Assembly: GCA_017460835.1 (NCBI GenBank)
Contig: JAFUAD010000037.1
Span: 1-64,000 of the forward strand
Length of the DNA: 64,000 nt
Reading direction: 5' to 3'
From: Oscillospiraceae bacterium
GTDB lineage: Bacteria > Bacillota > Clostridia > Oscillospirales > Ruminococcaceae
A program made the position numbers and the translations under genes. The first letter of the stretch is position 1. Each line of letters opens with the position of its first letter. The notes beneath the pieces are model-generated. The model was not told the DNA's origin. It did no database searches and was given only the letters and a program-made list of their open reading frames with translations. This document shows positions 2,903-64,000 of the stretch, piece by piece.

Positions 2903-2931
2903 ATTTTAGCACATTGTGAAAGTTTTGTCAA
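2903..2931 (-). promoter_or_regulatory. Sigma-A promoter of the glutamate synthase unit
   Basis: TTGACA at 2926-2931 and TAAAAT at 2903-2908 with a 17-base spacer, reading toward the amidotransferase gene. Confidence 0.75.
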
Positions 2932-3042
2932 TATCCGGCGGACTGTTTTCCGCAGCTCGCGCACAATTTCGGAGGATTCGCCGGATTTCGGCTCCGTTCG
3001 AGCAGAAAATTTATGCCGCATTCCGAAAATCGGAAAAATCGC

Positions 3043-53276: not shown

Positions 53277-54476
53277 TTAGGTATTTTCGAGACCCTCGAA
53301 GGAGCCGTACAGTGCCGGGAAGAACGCGGCGCAGACCAGTGCGATGATAACGCCGAGAACGATCAGCATGACCGGTTCCAGCAGCGAGCACAGACGCTTG
53401 ACGGCGGAATCCGCTTCTTCGTCGTAATACTCAGCTGTCTTTGCGAGGATGTCGTCCAGTGCGCCTGCTTCCTCACCGACGAAGATGATGGAGCAGAACA
53501 TGGAATCGAAAATATCGGCTCTCTGGATCGAGGAGCTGAGCGTTTCACCGCTCTTGACCTCGTCGATGATATCGCGGAACTTGAGGGAGATGTAGGTGTT
53601 GTTCAGCGTATCAGAGGAACGCTTGAGACATTCGACCATCGGCAGACCGGAGGAATACAGCGAAGCCATTGTCTGCGCGAAACGTGCGGTATAGATCTTG
53701 ACAACGAGCTTGCCGAAGGCCGGGCCTTTGATCTTGAATCTGTCCCATTTCAGCCGGACATCCGGGAGCTTCAGTGCGTAAATCGCAACGAAGACCAGGA
53801 CGACGATTGCGCCGATAATGATGACATAATGCTTTGTGAGGAAGTCGCCGATGCCCATCATCGCCTTCGTCAGGCCCGGAATCTCGTCCGGATCGTCGTA
53901 GAGGTTTGTGAAGGTCGGCATGATGAACACGAAGACGCCGATGACGATTGCGATTGTCAGAACGACCAGGATGATCGGGTAGACCATCGCGCTCTTGATG
54001 GTGTTTGCGATTTTGTTCTGGTTTGCGTAGTAGTCGCTGAGTCGCTGCATGATGACGTCCATCTGGCCGGAGGATTCACCTGCGCCGACCATGGAGGTCA
54101 TCAGGGTCGGGAAGACGCTGCCGTGAACCTCAAGTGCATCCGAGAACGATTCGCCCTTCTGCACATTTTCGTACACATCGCGCCATACGTTTCGAGCAGC
54201 CTCGCTCTCCTGCTCCTTGCAGAGAATGTCGAGTGCCTTGACCAGAGTCAGACCCGATGTCAGCATCGCCGCGAGCTGTCTGGTCGCGAAGGCAAGATCC
54301 TTTGTCTTGAACTTTTTGACGGTCTTGACGCTGGACTGCCGCTCCTTGTACTCGGTAACATACATTCCCTTTTCACGGATTTTCGCCAGAAATTCCTGCT
54401 CATCCTCTGCGGACATGACGCCCTTGCGGACATTACCTGTCGCGTCCTTCGCTGTATAAGCGAAACTTGTTGGCAT
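53277..54476 (-). CDS. pilC: PilC, inner-membrane platform protein
   Basis: 399 residues of the GspF/PilC family, with two repeats each containing a helical domain and membrane helices (FATRQLAAMLTSGLTLVKAL, MVGAGESSGQMD, then ARFAQTMASLYSSGLPMVECL, FVGEEAGALDDIL). It forms the platform on which PilB and PilT act. ATG 54476 follows AGGAGG. First gene of the six-gene operon down to the prepilins. Confidence 0.92.
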   Translation of the reverse strand: MPTSFAYTAKDATGNVRKGVMSAEDEQEFLAKIREKGMYVTEYKERQSSVKTVKKFKTKDLAFATRQLAAMLTSGLTLVKALDILCKEQESEAARNVWRDVYENVQKGESFSDALEVHGSVFPTLMTSMVGAGESSGQMDVIMQRLSDYYANQNKIANTIKSAMVYPIILVVLTIAIVIGVFVFIMPTFTNLYDDPDEIPGLTKAMMGIGDFLTKHYVIIIGAIVVLVFVAIYALKLPDVRLKWDRFKIKGPAFGKLVVKIYTARFAQTMASLYSSGLPMVECLKRSSDTLNNTYISLKFRDIIDEVKSGETLSSSIQRADIFDSMFCSIIFVGEEAGALDDILAKTAEYYDEEADSAVKRLCSLLEPVMLIVLGVIIALVCAAFFPALYGSFEGLENT

Positions 54477-54668
54477 AAAACCACCTCCTGAAAGCATGAT
54501 TTCGATTTTTCGGCTGCCGGGGAGCGTCCCGGCGGTTCCTGTATATCCGTGTGCAACTCAGCGCACGCCATACAGGCTCCGAAGCAGGCTCCGCACCTTG
54601 TGTTCCAAGCGTACCGGAAGCCGCCCCGCATCTGCAAATGGGCATAGCAATAGCCACACATAGATCCA
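54477..54668 (-). promoter_or_regulatory. Long structured leader of the pilC operon
   Basis: About 190 bases lie between the promoter and pilC. Hairpins such as GCCGGG/CCCCGGC are seen, but not the conserved core of a GEMM c-di-GMP riboswitch. Its role is unknown. Confidence 0.35.
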
Positions 54669-57156: not shown

Positions 57157-57185
57157 TTGACAACCGCCGGATTTTGTGATATAAT
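57157..57185 (+). promoter_or_regulatory. Promoter of tRNA-Arg
   Basis: TTGACA (57157-57162) and TATAAT (57180-57185), 17-base spacer. Confidence 0.85.
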
Positions 57186-57217
57186 AGCAGAGTTGACGGA
57201 TGAAATATCCGCAAGAT

Positions 57218-57291
57218 GCGCCGGTAGCTCAGCTGGATAGAGTAACTGGCTACGAACCAGTAGGTCGGGGGTTCGAATCCCTTCCGGCGCA
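57218..57291 (+). tRNA. tRNA-Arg (ACG)
   Basis: 74 bases without encoded CCA. Acceptor GCGCCGG pairs with CCGGCGC, anticodon stem ACTGG/CCAGT encloses loop CTACGAA (anticodon ACG, read as ICG), and the T-arm has GGTTCGAATCC. Discriminator A at 57291. Confidence 0.93.
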
Positions 57292-57293
57292 TT

Positions 57294-57610: not shown

Positions 57611-57925
57611 AAAAAAGCAGCACTGCCTGCACGGGTTGGCAATGCTGCTCTTGTTCTAAGTTGTTTCGCACCGGTCTATACCACCCCGGCGCGCCGCTGC
57701 GGCATTTCATCCGCAGACACCTTCAGGTTACTCTGTCATATATAATCCCTGCATCGGTATCACACCCTATGCATTGTGATATTTTCCCAAATTGCGCGGT
57801 TTATGTCCCGCGGCTGTACTCCTGCATCGGAAGCACACCCTTTCATTCATAAGGTTCGGGAACTGACATCAGCAGCCCATTGGAAACGCCTCCAGTCTCT
57901 ATTGAGCGGGTCGCTCTTTGTTTAT
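57611..57925 (-). ncRNA. Candidate structured RNA of about 315 nt
   Basis: Transcription would start near 57925 from a perfect promoter and end at a strong terminator: GCAGCATTGCC pairs with GGCAGTGCTGC, then T6 at 57611-57616. No ORF with a binding site lies inside. The RNA has many local hairpins: GAGCG/CGCTC near the 5' end, GCGG/CCGC, TATCACA/TGTGATA, CTGCGG/CCGCAG. A motif of the form GGGTGTGnTnCCGATGCAGG occurs twice, 73 bases apart (plus-strand 57748-57768 and 57821-57841), each placing GATGCA in a hairpin loop. It lacks RNase P, tmRNA and SRP hallmarks that I know. 6S and the raiA-type large RNAs remain possible; I cannot decide without a covariance search. Confidence 0.7.
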
Positions 57926-57931
57926 GGCTTT

Positions 57932-57960
57932 ATTATACCACAGTTCTTTTTATTTGTCAA
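57932..57960 (-). promoter_or_regulatory. Promoter of the structured RNA
   Basis: Perfect TTGACA (57955-57960) and TATAAT (57932-57937) on the minus strand, 17-base spacer. The stretch 57961-58158 up to the next promoter holds no gene. Confidence 0.85.
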
Positions 57961-58303: not shown

Positions 58304-60622
58304 ATGAAATCACTTTTCAAGCGCACGCTTGCAACAGCGACCGGTTCCGTGCTTGCACTGAGCCAGCTTGTCTCTGTTGCTGCGACTGTCAATGTCAGCG
58401 CTGCTGAAACGCTGGTCGTTGACAAGGCATTCGTTCTGAACGTCCCGATCGACGAACTGAACCCCCTCAAGGCGGATCAGGTCTCTGACTGGGCAGACGA
58501 AGCAGAAGCAAAGTTCATCGAGCTGGGCGACGGCCATACCTTTAAGGTCGGTACCCAGAAGGCAAAGGATCGTGCCCGCACCTTCCTCGCAAAGAACGGC
58601 TCAGCTTATCTGACCGCTGAGGACATCGAGGCTCTGCTCGCAACAGTCGATGCACAGGGCACTGTCGTGACCAACACGAACGGCACCTTCACCGGCACCG
58701 CAGGCTTCGGCGATATCGGTCCGATCATCGGCGGCATCGTCGAGAGACTCTACGGCGACAAAATCGTTGAGCTCGACTGGTCCGAATTCCACGCAAGCGC
58801 ACAGGCTACCGTCAGCGGCAAGGTCGATTTCGACGCAAAGACCGTCACCTACGAAACCGCAATCACCGCAAGCAACGGCAAGACCTATCAGAACTTTAGC
58901 GGCGCAAAGCAGTATGCGTTCGATGTTCTGGAGGAGGCAACCCAGTACGCAATCAGCAAGGGCGGCCTCAAGACCACCATCACCGACACCCACGATCAGA
59001 CCGTGAAGAAGCTCGGCTATGTCTCTGCAATCGCAGATGCAATCAATGCCATCACCCTTTCCGGCGAGACCGATCCGGATACCGCATATTCCGATTACCT
59101 CGCAGCAGTTGACACCGCGATCGACGGCTCCGGCGTTCCGGCAGCAGTCGCTGACAGAGTGAAGAACGCAATCGACAAGAGAGAGCCGGCTTCCGTTACC
59201 TCCGCGATCGAGAGCGAGCGCTTCAACAGCCTCTTCGACAGAATCGTGAATGTTGTCAACAGCAGCAAGGCAAATGCACAGGTCGATCTGACCACATCCG
59301 ATATCGCAGCAGTCATCAACGACGGCTACGATTACGAGATCAATGTCCCGAACGGCTACTCCGCAGATGCTGCCTTCAAGTATGAGGACGAGCAGGCTGC
59401 CGATCTGCTCGATGCAGTGAAGTCCGTTTACACCGATGACGGCTTCATCGCAGGCGCAGACCTCGAGGCTCTCGCAAATGCAGCAGGCGGCGAGAATCAG
59501 GATTACATCGTCGTGGACGGCACCGGCGCTGAGGTTACCGACTTCACAAAGGATTACACCGTGATCGAGGTCGTTTCCCACAAGGAAATCTCCGCTTATG
59601 CCAATACGGACTATGTTGTCAAGGGCGAGCTCTTCTACGATGTTGAGCGTGTGATCGAGCAGATCGTTGTTGAGGAGGTCGAGGAGACCACGACCACCAC
59701 AACCACCACCACCGATACCACCTCTACCACGACTACCTCCACCACCTCTGACAGCACCTCTACCACGACTTCCTCTACCACCACCGATAGCACCACCACC
59801 ACGACCGATACCACCTCCTCTACGGATTCCACCAGCAGCACCACCACCACGCTGGCAACCTATGTTTCGTTCGATGTCGGCGCAAACGGCAACAACGAGC
59901 TGGTTTACTGGTCTGAGGAGACCGATGCGACCTTCGATTTCGATACCATCACCATCAAGGCTCACTTCATCGTTGCAGGTGAAGATCAGGCTGAAGATGT
60001 TGTCGATGTGACCGAGTTCTTCGGCGCAGAGGCAAATTCCCCGGCTGAAATGGGCATCTCCCTGGCAGAAGGCATCGGCAGCGGCAAGTTCCCGGTCGGC
60101 CTGATCCTGAAGGACGAGGCCGGTCTTGCTCAGGTCATCGACGAGAAGGGCTACGATTCTGAGTCCATCATCGCAGATCAGAGCTTCGCAAACGGTGCGA
60201 TCGTTTCCAGATTCTATGTCATTCTGGTTCTCCGCGGCGACGCCGACCTGAACGGCGAAATCAGTGTTGAAGATGCACAGTATGCTCTGAACTACTACAC
60301 TGACGTTCTGGCAAAGCACGGTCCTGCACACACCATCCGTGCTGGCTACTATCTGATCGGCTACAATGATCCGATGGCAATTATGCCGTATTCTCACTAT
60401 GCAATGGATACTGCTGACGGCGACGGCGTCATCAATATTGAAGATGCGCAGAGAATTCTTCAGTACTACACCGATAACACCCTGGCACAGAAGAATTACG
60501 ACTGGGATAAGGTCAACGAGGGCGTTCACGTCATTCCGCTGAATCAGCTCCACGCAGATCCGCTTGCACAGGATGACTTCGGTAAGGCAGATTACGTTGA
60601 TTACATGGCAACCCGTGAATAA
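58304..60622 (+). CDS. Secreted dockerin protein of unknown function
   Basis: 772 residues. Signal peptide about 1-34; a large Ala/Asp/Thr-rich helical region (about 35-450) with no known catalytic motif; a Thr/Ser linker (about 465-520); a beta-like domain (about 522-640, YVSFDVGANGNNELVYW) that resembles cohesin or CBM-type sandwiches in style; and a C-terminal dockerin-like pair (RGDADLNGEISVEDAQYALN and ADGDGVINIEDAQRILQYY) separated by an unusually long insert. AAGGAGAGG precedes ATG. It may be a structural cellulosome component or an adaptor (beta domain plus dockerin), but this is inference. Confidence 0.65.
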   Translation: MKSLFKRTLATATGSVLALSQLVSVAATVNVSAAETLVVDKAFVLNVPIDELNPLKADQVSDWADEAEAKFIELGDGHTFKVGTQKAKDRARTFLAKNGSAYLTAEDIEALLATVDAQGTVVTNTNGTFTGTAGFGDIGPIIGGIVERLYGDKIVELDWSEFHASAQATVSGKVDFDAKTVTYETAITASNGKTYQNFSGAKQYAFDVLEEATQYAISKGGLKTTITDTHDQTVKKLGYVSAIADAINAITLSGETDPDTAYSDYLAAVDTAIDGSGVPAAVADRVKNAIDKREPASVTSAIESERFNSLFDRIVNVVNSSKANAQVDLTTSDIAAVINDGYDYEINVPNGYSADAAFKYEDEQAADLLDAVKSVYTDDGFIAGADLEALANAAGGENQDYIVVDGTGAEVTDFTKDYTVIEVVSHKEISAYANTDYVVKGELFYDVERVIEQIVVEEVEETTTTTTTTTDTTSTTTTSTTSDSTSTTTSSTTTDSTTTTTDTTSSTDSTSSTTTTLATYVSFDVGANGNNELVYWSEETDATFDFDTITIKAHFIVAGEDQAEDVVDVTEFFGAEANSPAEMGISLAEGIGSGKFPVGLILKDEAGLAQVIDEKGYDSESIIADQSFANGAIVSRFYVILVLRGDADLNGEISVEDAQYALNYYTDVLAKHGPAHTIRAGYYLIGYNDPMAIMPYSHYAMDTADGDGVINIEDAQRILQYYTDNTLAQKNYDWDKVNEGVHVIPLNQLHADPLAQDDFGKADYVDYMATRE

Positions 60623-60723: not shown

Positions 60724-63700
60724 TTAAAACCGAATGGTAAAGGTGGTCTGCTCCTTGTCCCAGTGGATATCCGCATCGGCAAAGGGGTCGTCGCTGCCGG
60801 CGGCTGCGGGCTCCGGGAGCTCCGCCGAAATGTGCTCGTCGAGCTTCGGGATATCCGGTTCCTCGTCCGCGAGCTTTGCGGCGGGTTTCGCCTCGGGCTC
60901 AGCCGCGGGCTTCTTGCGGCGCGGCATGGAATCCACATCCGGCAGATCATCGAGCAGGCTTGCGCGCTGACGCGCCTTGCGCTGCTCCGGGGTCTCCTTC
61001 TCGCGGCGGCGCATCTCCTGCTCCTCCGGCAGATCGGGCAGATCGTCGAGCAGGCTTGCGCGGCGGCGGGCCTTCGTCTCCTCGGGGGTTTCCCTCTCGC
61101 GGCGGCGGATTTCCTCCTCCTCCGGCGAGAGCTCCTTCTTCTTGCTGCGCTTGCGCTTGGGCTTCTCGGCGGGCAGCGGAGCGGCTTCCGCTTCTTCGAT
61201 CTGCGGCAGCTTGGCCTTCGGATCGACCGGCACGGATTTCTTCCGCGCCTCAGCGAGCTCACGCTTCACGCGCTCCGCGTAATTGAGCTCCTCCTCCTCG
61301 ACAAAGCTGCGTGCTGCGGATTTCTCGGGAGCGGGCGGCTCAGGCTCTGCGGCGGGCTTTGCCGCGGGCTCAGGCTGCGGCTTCTGTGCCTTTCGTTTCT
61401 GATTCTTCGGCTGCGGCTTGGGCGGCTCGGCATCCGATTGTGCCTCTGCCTCCTGCACAGCCTGCGCGGGATCCTCAAAGGTCTGGCTGAATACCGGCTC
61501 ACCGGATGCCTTCGGCTCCGGCTCAGCAGGCTTTTCTTCGACAGGTTCGGGGATTTCCTCGGGCGCGGGCGGTTCCTCCGCCGCAAACAGGAATGCGGGG
61601 TCGTTCGAGACCGCCTCGGTGGCGGGCTCCTCCGGCAGGGTCGTATCCCCAAAGAGGAATGCGGGATCGCCGGGCGACGGCGCAGGCTCGTCTGCGGCCG
61701 GCTGCGGCTGCTGATCTGCAAACAGGAACGACGGGTCGTTGGTCGGCGCGGTGATCGGGTCTTCCCTTCTGCGCGGAACCGGCGGGGCTGCTGCGGCCGC
61801 GGCTGCTGCCTGCTCGGCCTCCTCCTCCGCCTGCTCCTGTGCGAGCAGCGATTCCATATTCAGCGGAATCAGCGTCATCATCAAATGATGCTGCTTTGCA
61901 TAGCGCTCTGCATAGCTGCCCTCCTCAGCATGGAGCCGGAACTTCGGGCACTCGGTAAACGCATTTTCGCTGATTTCCGTGACGGAGCGCGGAATCGCGA
62001 TATCGGTCAGCTTTTCGCAATGGCTGAACGCGGACTGGCCGATTCTCGTTACGCCGTCCGGAATGATGATCTTCTCGATGCCGGCGTGATAGAACGCCTC
62101 ATTGTCGATCTCAGTCAGCGTCGCGGGCAGCTTGATCGTTTTCAGCGCCGTGCAGCTTGAGAACATCGCGTGGCCGACCTTTGTCGGGCCCTCGCGGAAT
62201 ACTACCTTTTTCAGATTGGTGCAGCCGTGGAAGATATAGCCGTCGATGCGGCGCAGTGTCGTCGGGAGCTCGATGCGCTCGAGCTGGTCGCAGTACGAGA
62301 AGGCGCCGTGCTGGAGGCGGTTGACGCCCTCCGGCAGCCGGACAATCCGCACGGGAAGCTGCGCAAATGCGGCAGCACCGATGCACCGGACGCCGATCGG
62401 GACATTGACCTCCGGCTGCGTCAGATTGGCATGCAGCAGGATATTGGCACCGGCGATCGTATACGGCTCGGTGCGGCGGGTCATCCACGGGGTATAGGCA
62501 AATGCGTCGATGCCGATTTCGGTGACACTCGTCGGGATGATGACATCGGTCAGGACGCCGCAGTTTGCGAAGGCGTTGTCGCCGATGCTGATGACGCCCT
62601 CCGGAATCACGGCAGCGCGCAGGCCGCCGCGCTCAAAGGCACGCGGGCCGATGCGGCGGACACCGACCGGAATCGGGCTGTATCCGTCGGCGCGGATCAG
62701 AAATCTGCCGACGATGTAATGGCCGGCGGTCATGCGGAACAGCGGCGTGTCGGCAAAGGCATTGCCGGCGATCTCCTCAACGCTGTCCGGGATATAAGCT
62801 TCCTGAAGGCTGGAGCAGCCGCGGAATGCATTTTGCTGGATGTATTTGGGTCCCTCCGGAATCACGACCGTGCGGAGTGACGAGCAGCCGCTGCAAATGC
62901 CGTCGCTGACCATATCGAGCTTTGCGGAAAAGCGCAACTCGGTCAGGGACATACAGTCGCGCAGGGCTTCATTTTCGAGCTTTTCGAGCGTATCCGGCAT
63001 ATAGAACCGGCGCATTGTCGTACAGCTTTGGAACGCATTTTTCTCGATGACCTCCATGCCCTGCGGCAGGATGACCTCCAGCAGCGGGCAGTCACGGAAG
63101 GCGAAGCGTCCGATGCGCTTCAGCGTGCTCGGCAGATAGATGCGCTGCAAGCTGCGGCAGCCGTTGAAGGCATAGCCGCCGATCTCGACAACACCCTCCG
63201 GCACAACGACGGAGACGAGCTGCCGGTTCTGCTCAAAGGCGTGGTTGCCGATGCGGATGACGCCGTCCGGGATCATGATATCGCGGACATTATACTCCTG
63301 CGTATATTTTTTCAGAATGCCGTATTCGATGAAGAACGCAGGATTGCAGCCGCGCAGCAGATTCGCCTCCCGCTCGGTGTAGCACATGATGCCGTGCTCC
63401 TGCGCATAGCGGTGTGCGACGCTGCCGGTGACGGTGGTGATGACCTGGATATTGTGATCCGATCCGAACGCATACGGATGGAGCTTCGTAACAGACGGGG
63501 GAATGATGATCGCTTTCAGCTCTGTGCAGCCGGCAAAGGCGTCCTCGCCGATTTCGGTCACGGTTTCGGGGATATAGACGCTTGTCAGGGATGAGCAGCA
63601 CGAAAAAGCCTCGCGTCCGATGGTACGGAGTCCGGCAGAGAGCTTGAGGTTGACGAGCGAAGTACAGGCATAAAAGGCGCGGTTGTCGATATGCTTGACG

Positions 63701-64000
63701 CTGGAGGGCAGGGTAACGTCCTCCAGACGGGAGCATCCGGAGAAGGTGCCGCGGGCAATGGACTCGATCTTGTCTGAGATGAACACAGAGCGCAGTCCGC
63801 TGCAATTGCAGAATGCCCATGCACCGATGGTTTCGCAGGTTTCCGGAAGATTTGCGGCACGGAGCACATGGCAGCCGTCGAAAGCGTTGGTTCCGATCTC
63901 GCGCAAGCCGTCAGAGAATTCGACATCCTGAAGCTGCGCGCAGAGTGCAAATGCACGCTCCCCGATGGTTTTGACGCTTGCGGGGATGCTGATGCTGTTG
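60724..64000 (-). CDS. BspA-like leucine-rich repeat protein (5' end missing)
   Basis: At least 1091 codons, open through the right edge, so the true start and any signal peptide are outside the window; the ATG at 63906 lies within a repeat and is not the start. About 680 residues consist of LRR_5/BspA-type repeats (pattern IGxxAFxxCxxLxxVxIPxSVxxI). The C-terminal about 380 residues are different: Pro/Glu/Ala-rich with DPSFLFA, DPAFLFG and DPAFLFA repeated, then two copies of ASLLDDLPD, each preceded by an Arg-rich ETPExxKARxR segment. No membrane anchor or dockerin is seen at the C-terminus. The repeat part suggests binding to proteins or surfaces; the tail suggests docking to another protein. 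Confidence 0.75.
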   Translation of the reverse strand, partial: NSISIPASVKTIGERAFALCAQLQDVEFSDGLREIGTNAFDGCHVLRAANLPETCETIGAWAFCNCSGLRSVFISDKIESIARGTFSGCSRLEDVTLPSSVKHIDNRAFYACTSLVNLKLSAGLRTIGREAFSCCSSLTSVYIPETVTEIGEDAFAGCTELKAIIIPPSVTKLHPYAFGSDHNIQVITTVTGSVAHRYAQEHGIMCYTEREANLLRGCNPAFFIEYGILKKYTQEYNVRDIMIPDGVIRIGNHAFEQNRQLVSVVVPEGVVEIGGYAFNGCRSLQRIYLPSTLKRIGRFAFRDCPLLEVILPQGMEVIEKNAFQSCTTMRRFYMPDTLEKLENEALRDCMSLTELRFSAKLDMVSDGICSGCSSLRTVVIPEGPKYIQQNAFRGCSSLQEAYIPDSVEEIAGNAFADTPLFRMTAGHYIVGRFLIRADGYSPIPVGVRRIGPRAFERGGLRAAVIPEGVISIGDNAFANCGVLTDVIIPTSVTEIGIDAFAYTPWMTRRTEPYTIAGANILLHANLTQPEVNVPIGVRCIGAAAFAQLPVRIVRLPEGVNRLQHGAFSYCDQLERIELPTTLRRIDGYIFHGCTNLKKVVFREGPTKVGHAMFSSCTALKTIKLPATLTEIDNEAFYHAGIEKIIIPDGVTRIGQSAFSHCEKLTDIAIPRSVTEISENAFTECPKFRLHAEEGSYAERYAKQHHLMMTLIPLNMESLLAQEQAEEEAEQAAAAAAAAPPVPRRREDPITAPTNDPSFLFADQQPQPAADEPAPSPGDPAFLFGDTTLPEEPATEAVSNDPAFLFAAEEPPAPEEIPEPVEEKPAEPEPKASGEPVFSQTFEDPAQAVQEAEAQSDAEPPKPQPKNQKRKAQKPQPEPAAKPAAEPEPPAPEKSAARSFVEEEELNYAERVKRELAEARKKSVPVDPKAKLPQIEEAEAAPLPAEKPKRKRSKKKELSPEEEEIRRRERETPEETKARRRASLLDDLPDLPEEQEMRRREKETPEQRKARQRASLLDDLPDVDSMPRRKKPAAEPEAKPAAKLADEEPDIPKLDEHISAELPEPAAAGSDDPFADADIHWDKEQTTFTIRF

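Follow-up and report, generated by a model that had tools for sequence, protein, structure and literature searches.

On the minus strand of the window (the whole 64,000-nt stretch of DNA that was analyzed), positions 57611-57925 hold a predicted, self-contained transcription unit of about 315 nt (Table 1). An earlier note on this DNA had described a structured RNA with a perfect minus-strand promoter and a strong terminator, and each of these elements was recovered. The promoter boxes (TTGACA at 57960-57955, TATAAT at 57937-57932) match the consensus throughout, and among 27 relatives, the window's own genome included, the -35 box reads TTGACA in all 27 and the -10 box TATAAT in 24. The 315-nt fold was better than those of all 100 shuffled sequences (z -3.8). 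The 3' hairpin (57648-57617; -23.9 kcal/mol, z -5.6) is followed directly by six T; a simple terminator scan missed it because that scan allows loops of 3 to 8 bases and this loop has 10. The nearby tRNA-Arg gene (57217-57292, plus strand) has a promoter at 57157-57185 of identical form, with 12 of 12 matches and the TG. From this likeness we infer, with fair reason, a promoter of the stable-RNA type, from which the RNA would be produced in quantity.

Table 1. Features of the RNA locus and its conserved neighbor, with positions in the window
Feature	Position	Strand	Evidence
Promoter	57932..57960	-	TTGACA, 17-nt spacer, TATAAT with preceding TG; 12/12 consensus matches
Shine-Dalgarno, module 1 (GGAGGCG)	57887..57893	-	Sequence; 6/9 matches to AAGGAGGTG
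Minigene 1, MGC-stop	57869..57880	-	Sequence, frame reading; 3 codons
Shine-Dalgarno, module 2 (AAAGGGTGTG)	57834..57843	-	7/9 matches to AAGGAGGTG
Hairpin A, minigene 2 start codon in loop	57816..57836	-	All 7 pairs possible in 14/27 genomes
Minigene 2, MQEYSRGT-stop	57801..57827	-	Sequence, frame reading; 8 codons
Hairpin B, minigene 2 stop codon in loop	57795..57812	-	18/27 genomes vs 20% of random triplets
Shine-Dalgarno, module 3 (AGGGTGTG)	57761..57768	-	6/9 matches to AAGGAGGTG
Minigene 3, MQGLYMTE-stop	57728..57754	-	Sequence, frame reading; 8 codons
Possible small hairpin CCGG..TGGTATAGaCCGG	57670..57690	-	GGTATAG in 11/27 transcripts, stricter CCGG form in 6/27
3' hairpin, loop AACCCGTGCA	57617..57648	-	284/297 stem cells pair in 27 genomes
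T run behind hairpin, predicted RNA end	57611..57616	-	Six T; TTTT run close behind in 18/27 genomes
Divergent secreted-protein gene (MKSLFKR...)	58304..60622	+	Conserved neighbor; no Pfam/NCBIfam family over cut-off

The earlier note could not match the RNA to RNase P, tmRNA, or SRP RNA, and the covariance-model search it proposed gave the same answer: none of the 4,227 families of Rfam 15 reached its gathering score in 57611-57925, and with E values up to 10 a single chance match appeared, at E 9. Its suggestion of a 6S-type RNA fell away. RF00013 did not match at the locus, and a separate 6S gene was found in 28 of the 30 genus genomes (E 0.001), 22 of them over the Rfam cut-off, as is the window genome's own (G000:C86). 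ARAGORN and Rfam (RF00023) likewise detected no tmRNA at the locus; a separate tmRNA scored over the cut-off in 21 of the 30 genomes, with none over it in the window's own incomplete assembly. Since the genus carries separate 6S and tmRNA genes, the RNA is neither. These results support a structured RNA gene that stands on its own and lies beyond the Rfam families.

Within the unit, the note had seen a module repeated twice. The two 21-nt copies (57841-57821 and 57768-57748) are indeed 90% identical, and a third related module (GGAGGCGTTTCCAATG, 57893-57878), overlooked in the first reading, lies upstream. The module starts read AAAGGGTGTGCTTCCG-ATG, AGGGTGTGATACCG-ATG, and GGAGGCGTTTCCA-ATG. 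All share one layout. An extended Shine-Dalgarno related to AAGGAGGTG, taken here as the extended sequence complementary to the 3' end of 16S rRNA, is separated by a short spacer from an AUG, whose frame is soon closed by a stop. In all three window modules the stop falls within about ten codons of the AUG, and we refer to these very short frames as minigenes. The claim that the RNA has no translated frame therefore had to be given up: such a frame follows each module, and its shortness is frame specific in the 27 genomes (see below). The GATGCA modules are better read as translation start sites than as a motif displayed in loops.

To describe the distribution of the unit, we combined sequence and pattern searches. 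A blastn search for homologues, also proposed in the note, matched the window's RNA in 19 of the 30 genus genomes (own included), and the module pattern AAGGRYGTGNNNCCRATG matched in 28 of the 30, its reversed control giving 0 matches. Among 64 pattern matches, 61 fell inside the RNA locus itself, on which count a mimic of regulon start sites was rejected as a candidate; of the three strays, two stand before long frames of the usual kind, so the module can serve as an ordinary start site. The unit is thus present in 28 genomes, all with the promoter, at least two modules, and a 3' hairpin whose loop reads CCCGTG (TTCGTG in G014). Of the two genomes lacking a match, one has the locus at a contig edge (G019, where the neighbor gene starts at base 130), and the other has no full-length match to the neighbor gene (G025). 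One member, G005, was recognized late and is left out of all tests on 27 genomes. In G005 we also noted a start resembling the modules, whose promoter has the form seen at the locus, within about 1 kb of the 6S RNA gene (G005:C20:88900-91000, L083); this site is not a member of the locus.

Wider sets of sequences were also searched. Named records contained an exact module form on 13 contigs, titled as Ruminococcus sp., Oscillospiraceae, or Clostridiales assemblies; several of these came from the rumen or omasum of sheep or goats and one came from horse feces. With up to 2 mismatches, the module pattern matched 6 of 297 family genomes, four of these within the genus. Across 394 genomes of the order, the tandem-module pattern was found in the window's own and was absent from the other 393. 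The unit looks genus bound, although patterns as strict as these two could miss a diverged form in other lineages. No match to the unit was returned by blastn against phage and plasmid records. Separately, positions 2918-3008 of viral contig IMGVR_UViG_3300031998_000520 (L114) contain two tandem copies of AAGGGGGTGATTCCAATG followed by MNY-stop and MDY-stop, with further repeats nearby. This stretch has no Rfam or tRNA match, its exact form occurs in no other viral contig, and it is possibly an independent tandem-minigene RNA.

Across the genus, each RNA carries two to six modules spaced 51 to 143 nt apart, giving 105 modules in the 27 genomes. Modules were defined by CC before the last base of the spacer and by a minimum of 6 Shine-Dalgarno matches out of 9. 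The conservation of these two elements is therefore partly built in; the frames and stops are free of the definition. Matches to AAGGAGGTG numbered 8 of 9 in 57 modules, 7 of 9 in 40, and 6 of 9 in 8, and no module among the 105 had all nine. An in-frame stop occurred within 11 codons in 91 of the 105 modules, compared to 27 in frame +1 and 34 in frame +2; at background positions in the same 27 transcripts, 41% had a stop within that distance. When modules were thinned to 62 dissimilar ones, which lowers shared ancestry without removing it fully, 56 stopped within 11 codons, versus 19 and 24 in the other frames. The p value for the frame test (6e-16) is rough because related modules are not independent. 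Such an asymmetry is expected of translation under selection and not of an untranslated row of binding sites, and the minigenes are likely translated. Three of them, one each in G001, G020, and G022, consist of AUG and stop, and 19 modules open two-codon minigenes. At the other end of the range, 14 of the 105 frames run for 12 to 34 codons, 12 of them last in the row. Stops were UGA in 46 modules, UAA in 45, and UAG in 14.

The encoded peptides drift, and the shortness of the frames is kept. Sixteen of the 27 genomes have MG-stop as their first minigene, and 5 more have MGC-, MGR-, or MGA-stop. In the second, MQ[KRE]Y...G recurs among closer relatives. From the third minigene on, there is hardly any common sequence (MYR, MTR, MWCFDDF, MGKAADS, and MQSH, each before a stop), yet most of these frames are short, and outside the closer relatives the peptides are unrelated across the genus. 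We regard it as very unlikely that the tiny peptides are themselves the product, as a signal or toxin. The recurrent MQ[KRE]Y...G is what such a product would leave, but in the closer relatives the same bases form the stems of hairpins A and B, and in G009 a stop at codon 4 cuts this minigene to MQK-stop. The other minigenes have almost no peptide sequence in common, and many are M-, MG-, MW-, or MQ-stop. The peptides do not seem to be what matters.

The claim that GATGCA is shown in hairpin loops held for one of the two copies. The piece 57843-57795 folds with z -4.2, and the GATGCA of the first copy does lie in the loop of a hairpin (57836-57816, hairpin A); the hairpin of the second copy is little better than chance (z -1.2, with 25 of 200 shuffles equally good). 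Over the 27 genomes, hairpin A is paired in 144 of 189 cells, versus 37 to 58% in slid registers, and the 14 genomes in which it pairs fully hardly vary. Hairpin B shows compensatory exchanges (GCGGU/ACCGC, CCGGC/GCCGG, and UCGGA/UCCGG). Neither placement is a general rule. With the start codon in a loop, 76% of cells paired at module 2, 43% at module 1, and 54% at modules 3 and later; module 2 of the closer relatives is the one place where the AUG sits in such a loop. The stop codon, in a loop in 18 of 27 genomes at module 2, was so placed in 12 of 78 cases elsewhere, below the 20% of random triplets. Elsewhere in the transcripts, GGTATAG, partly within a CCGG/CCGG hairpin, is read in varying frames or lies outside frames, and hence is probably an RNA-level motif.

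Codon usage bears on whether the unit is a brake of the CreT or lambda bar kind, on which a tRNA is trapped as peptidyl-tRNA at rare codons (AGG). CreT RNAs, the small RNA toxins of CreTA modules, combine an efficient start signal (with a strong Shine-Dalgarno in one of two) with a single mini-ORF of 4 to 6 codons and a stable stem-loop behind; the mini-ORF holds two consecutive rare codons, its peptide does not serve as a product, and the RNAs are repressed through CRISPR-Cas (PMC8501985). The window's unit shares the strong start signal, mini-ORF, and stem-loop with CreT. In keeping with a trap, AGG is the most enriched minigene codon, at 19 of 425 compared to 2.6 per thousand in the window's mechanically chosen ORFs, and it reaches 45 per thousand in frame, whereas the other two frames have 12 to 15 and the untranslated gaps 12. 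AGG or AGA occurs in 22 of the 91 short minigenes. However, many of the AGG frames are related MYR-stop or MTR-stop forms, 9 of 27 genomes, the window's own included, have no AGG or AGA minigene, and the commonest codons at position 2 (CAG, GGC, and TAC) are common ones. Unlike CreT, the genus has two to six minigenes with mostly common codons behind a consensus promoter; the window's copy has no two consecutive rare codons, and its three minigenes contain no AGG, AGA, or AUA. A search with PADLOC for defense systems matched none of the six neighboring proteins searched. The phage lambda bar minigene (AUG-AUA-UAA) is alike in that its frame has a few codons and translation itself, rather than the peptide, has the effect (PMC8012679). 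The unit differs in lying on the chromosome as an array of two to six minigenes, with a promoter and 3' hairpin of its own. Taken together, we consider a tRNA trap improbable.

The unit always adjoins the divergent MKSLFKR gene (28 of 28 loci; by tblastn at E 1e-5 in 26 of 27, by protein clustering in G020, and separately in G005), with about 310 to 400 bp between the gene's start and the -35 box of the RNA where the start aligns. This constancy would suit a regulatory leader, for the MKSLFKR gene or for one downstream, but the MKSLFKR gene is divergent, the 3' hairpin closes the unit, and no adjacent downstream cluster is common to more than 3 of the 27 loci. Downstream genes differ among these loci, with no conserved gene on the same strand, and the unit does not qualify as a leader of downstream genes; we accord the leader reading, for either neighbor, little likelihood. 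The same difference separates the unit from the cis-acting minigene mg2 of axe-txe, which it resembles in its two-codon frames with Shine-Dalgarno sites: the mg2 type acts on a downstream gene (PMC8708949), and here none is shared. The MKSLFKR protein has at least 39 relatives among 5.8 billion proteins (only candidates sharing most words were scored), and those with names are from Oscillospiraceae or Ruminococcus. By eye, it has a threonine-rich stretch and a dockerin-like C terminus. The window also encodes a 1,060-aa protein with BspA-type leucine-rich repeats (60724-63906, minus strand) and a type II secretion F protein (53277-54497, minus strand).

Repeated GG-containing motifs in a stand-alone RNA are also the mark of sponges of the CsrB/CsrC type, in which the repeats are protein-binding sites. 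AAAGGAUGU resembles the CsrA consensus, which is the point in favor of such a sponge here. However, CsrA was found in 0 of the 30 genus genomes, with 3 of 14 control genomes positive, and modules 2 and 3 of the window carry GGG, not GGA. A sponge would also leave the frame-specific stops unexplained, since the repeats here are start sites followed by in-frame stops. With neither a host CsrA nor a repeated GGA, the candidate was rejected for CsrA, and we give a sponge of this kind next to no credence.

The loop of the 3' hairpin keeps CCCGTG in 26 of 27 genomes, whereas the stem varies freely, with many compensatory exchanges: 284 of 297 cells pair, and dealing the 3' arms anew gave 214 on average and 236 at most (arms were positioned for maximal pairing in each genome, and the dealt-anew control was not re-placed). 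In 9 of 27 genomes no TTTT run follows closely, and some of these have a second hairpin and T run further on, so the 3' hairpin is more than a terminator. These features form the case for the main rival, a trans-acting small RNA whose CCCGUG loop is the effector, by pairing or protein docking, and whose minigenes retain ribosomes to protect the RNA or report translation activity. It keeps translation and makes the minigenes the guard of the small RNA; ribosomes at minigene sites may shield RNA from nucleases, as suggested in PMC8708949. Still, a partner of the loop within its own transcript did not exceed shuffles (6.0 versus 6.4 bases), and guarding alone does not require up to six starts. 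We judge this small-RNA reading doubtful, though it is the strongest of the rivals.

The explanation that we favor, tentatively and as somewhat short of probable, is a stand-alone tandem minigene array on which ribosomes would start and stop repeatedly and which encodes no protein as its function; its useful output would be ribosome engagement. In its favor are the frame-specific stops, the AUG-stop forms, Shine-Dalgarnos with 6 to 8 of 9 matches, the drifting peptides, and the lack of a shared downstream gene. Against it stand the 14 longer frames, the want of any full Shine-Dalgarno match, the restriction to a single genus, and the CCCGUG loop, which is the part that this reading explains least. 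The start codon of module 2, in its hairpin loop, could also be hindered in initiation. On minigenes with strong start signals, ribosomes can re-initiate without dissociating and peptidyl-tRNA can drop off, and translation can be inhibited (PMC8708949 and PMC8012679). Very short frames favor the drop-off, strong Shine-Dalgarnos favor such re-initiation, and minigene expression can inhibit translation (PMC8708949, PMC8012679, and PMC10192219). These behaviors point to ribosome engagement as a likely output.

On this ribosome-engagement model, the RNA, likely strongly transcribed, would offer two to six translation starts. Ribosomes would bind, form at most about ten peptide bonds at most minigenes, and leave by termination or drop-off ahead of the following module. 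Their engagement could act as a decoy, a brake, an idling platform, or a reservoir, with short peptidyl-tRNAs as a possible by-product, and the 3' CCCGUG hairpin might stabilize the RNA or dock a partner.

In the open-license literature, we found nothing described as a stand-alone tandem minigene array. The minigenes of the cited papers act in cis as regulators, belong to phages, or are toxins with a single mini-ORF, and the array would be a variant of these minigene RNAs. Perhaps, although we would not count on it, it represents a new class of RNA, translated without a product, in which tandem start-stop minigenes, expressed constitutively from the chromosome, would trap ribosomes by holding or idling them and would serve as a built-in throttle or as a store of translation capacity. 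As a caution, structured RNAs considered "noncoding" may contain frames much too short for annotation to record. If two to six minigenes are kept genus-wide in a stand-alone array despite the drift of their peptides, then the target of selection would be the starting and stopping of ribosomes and not a product. The array would let one ask, in a natural setting, whether regulation by an RNA can work through the use of initiation capacity.
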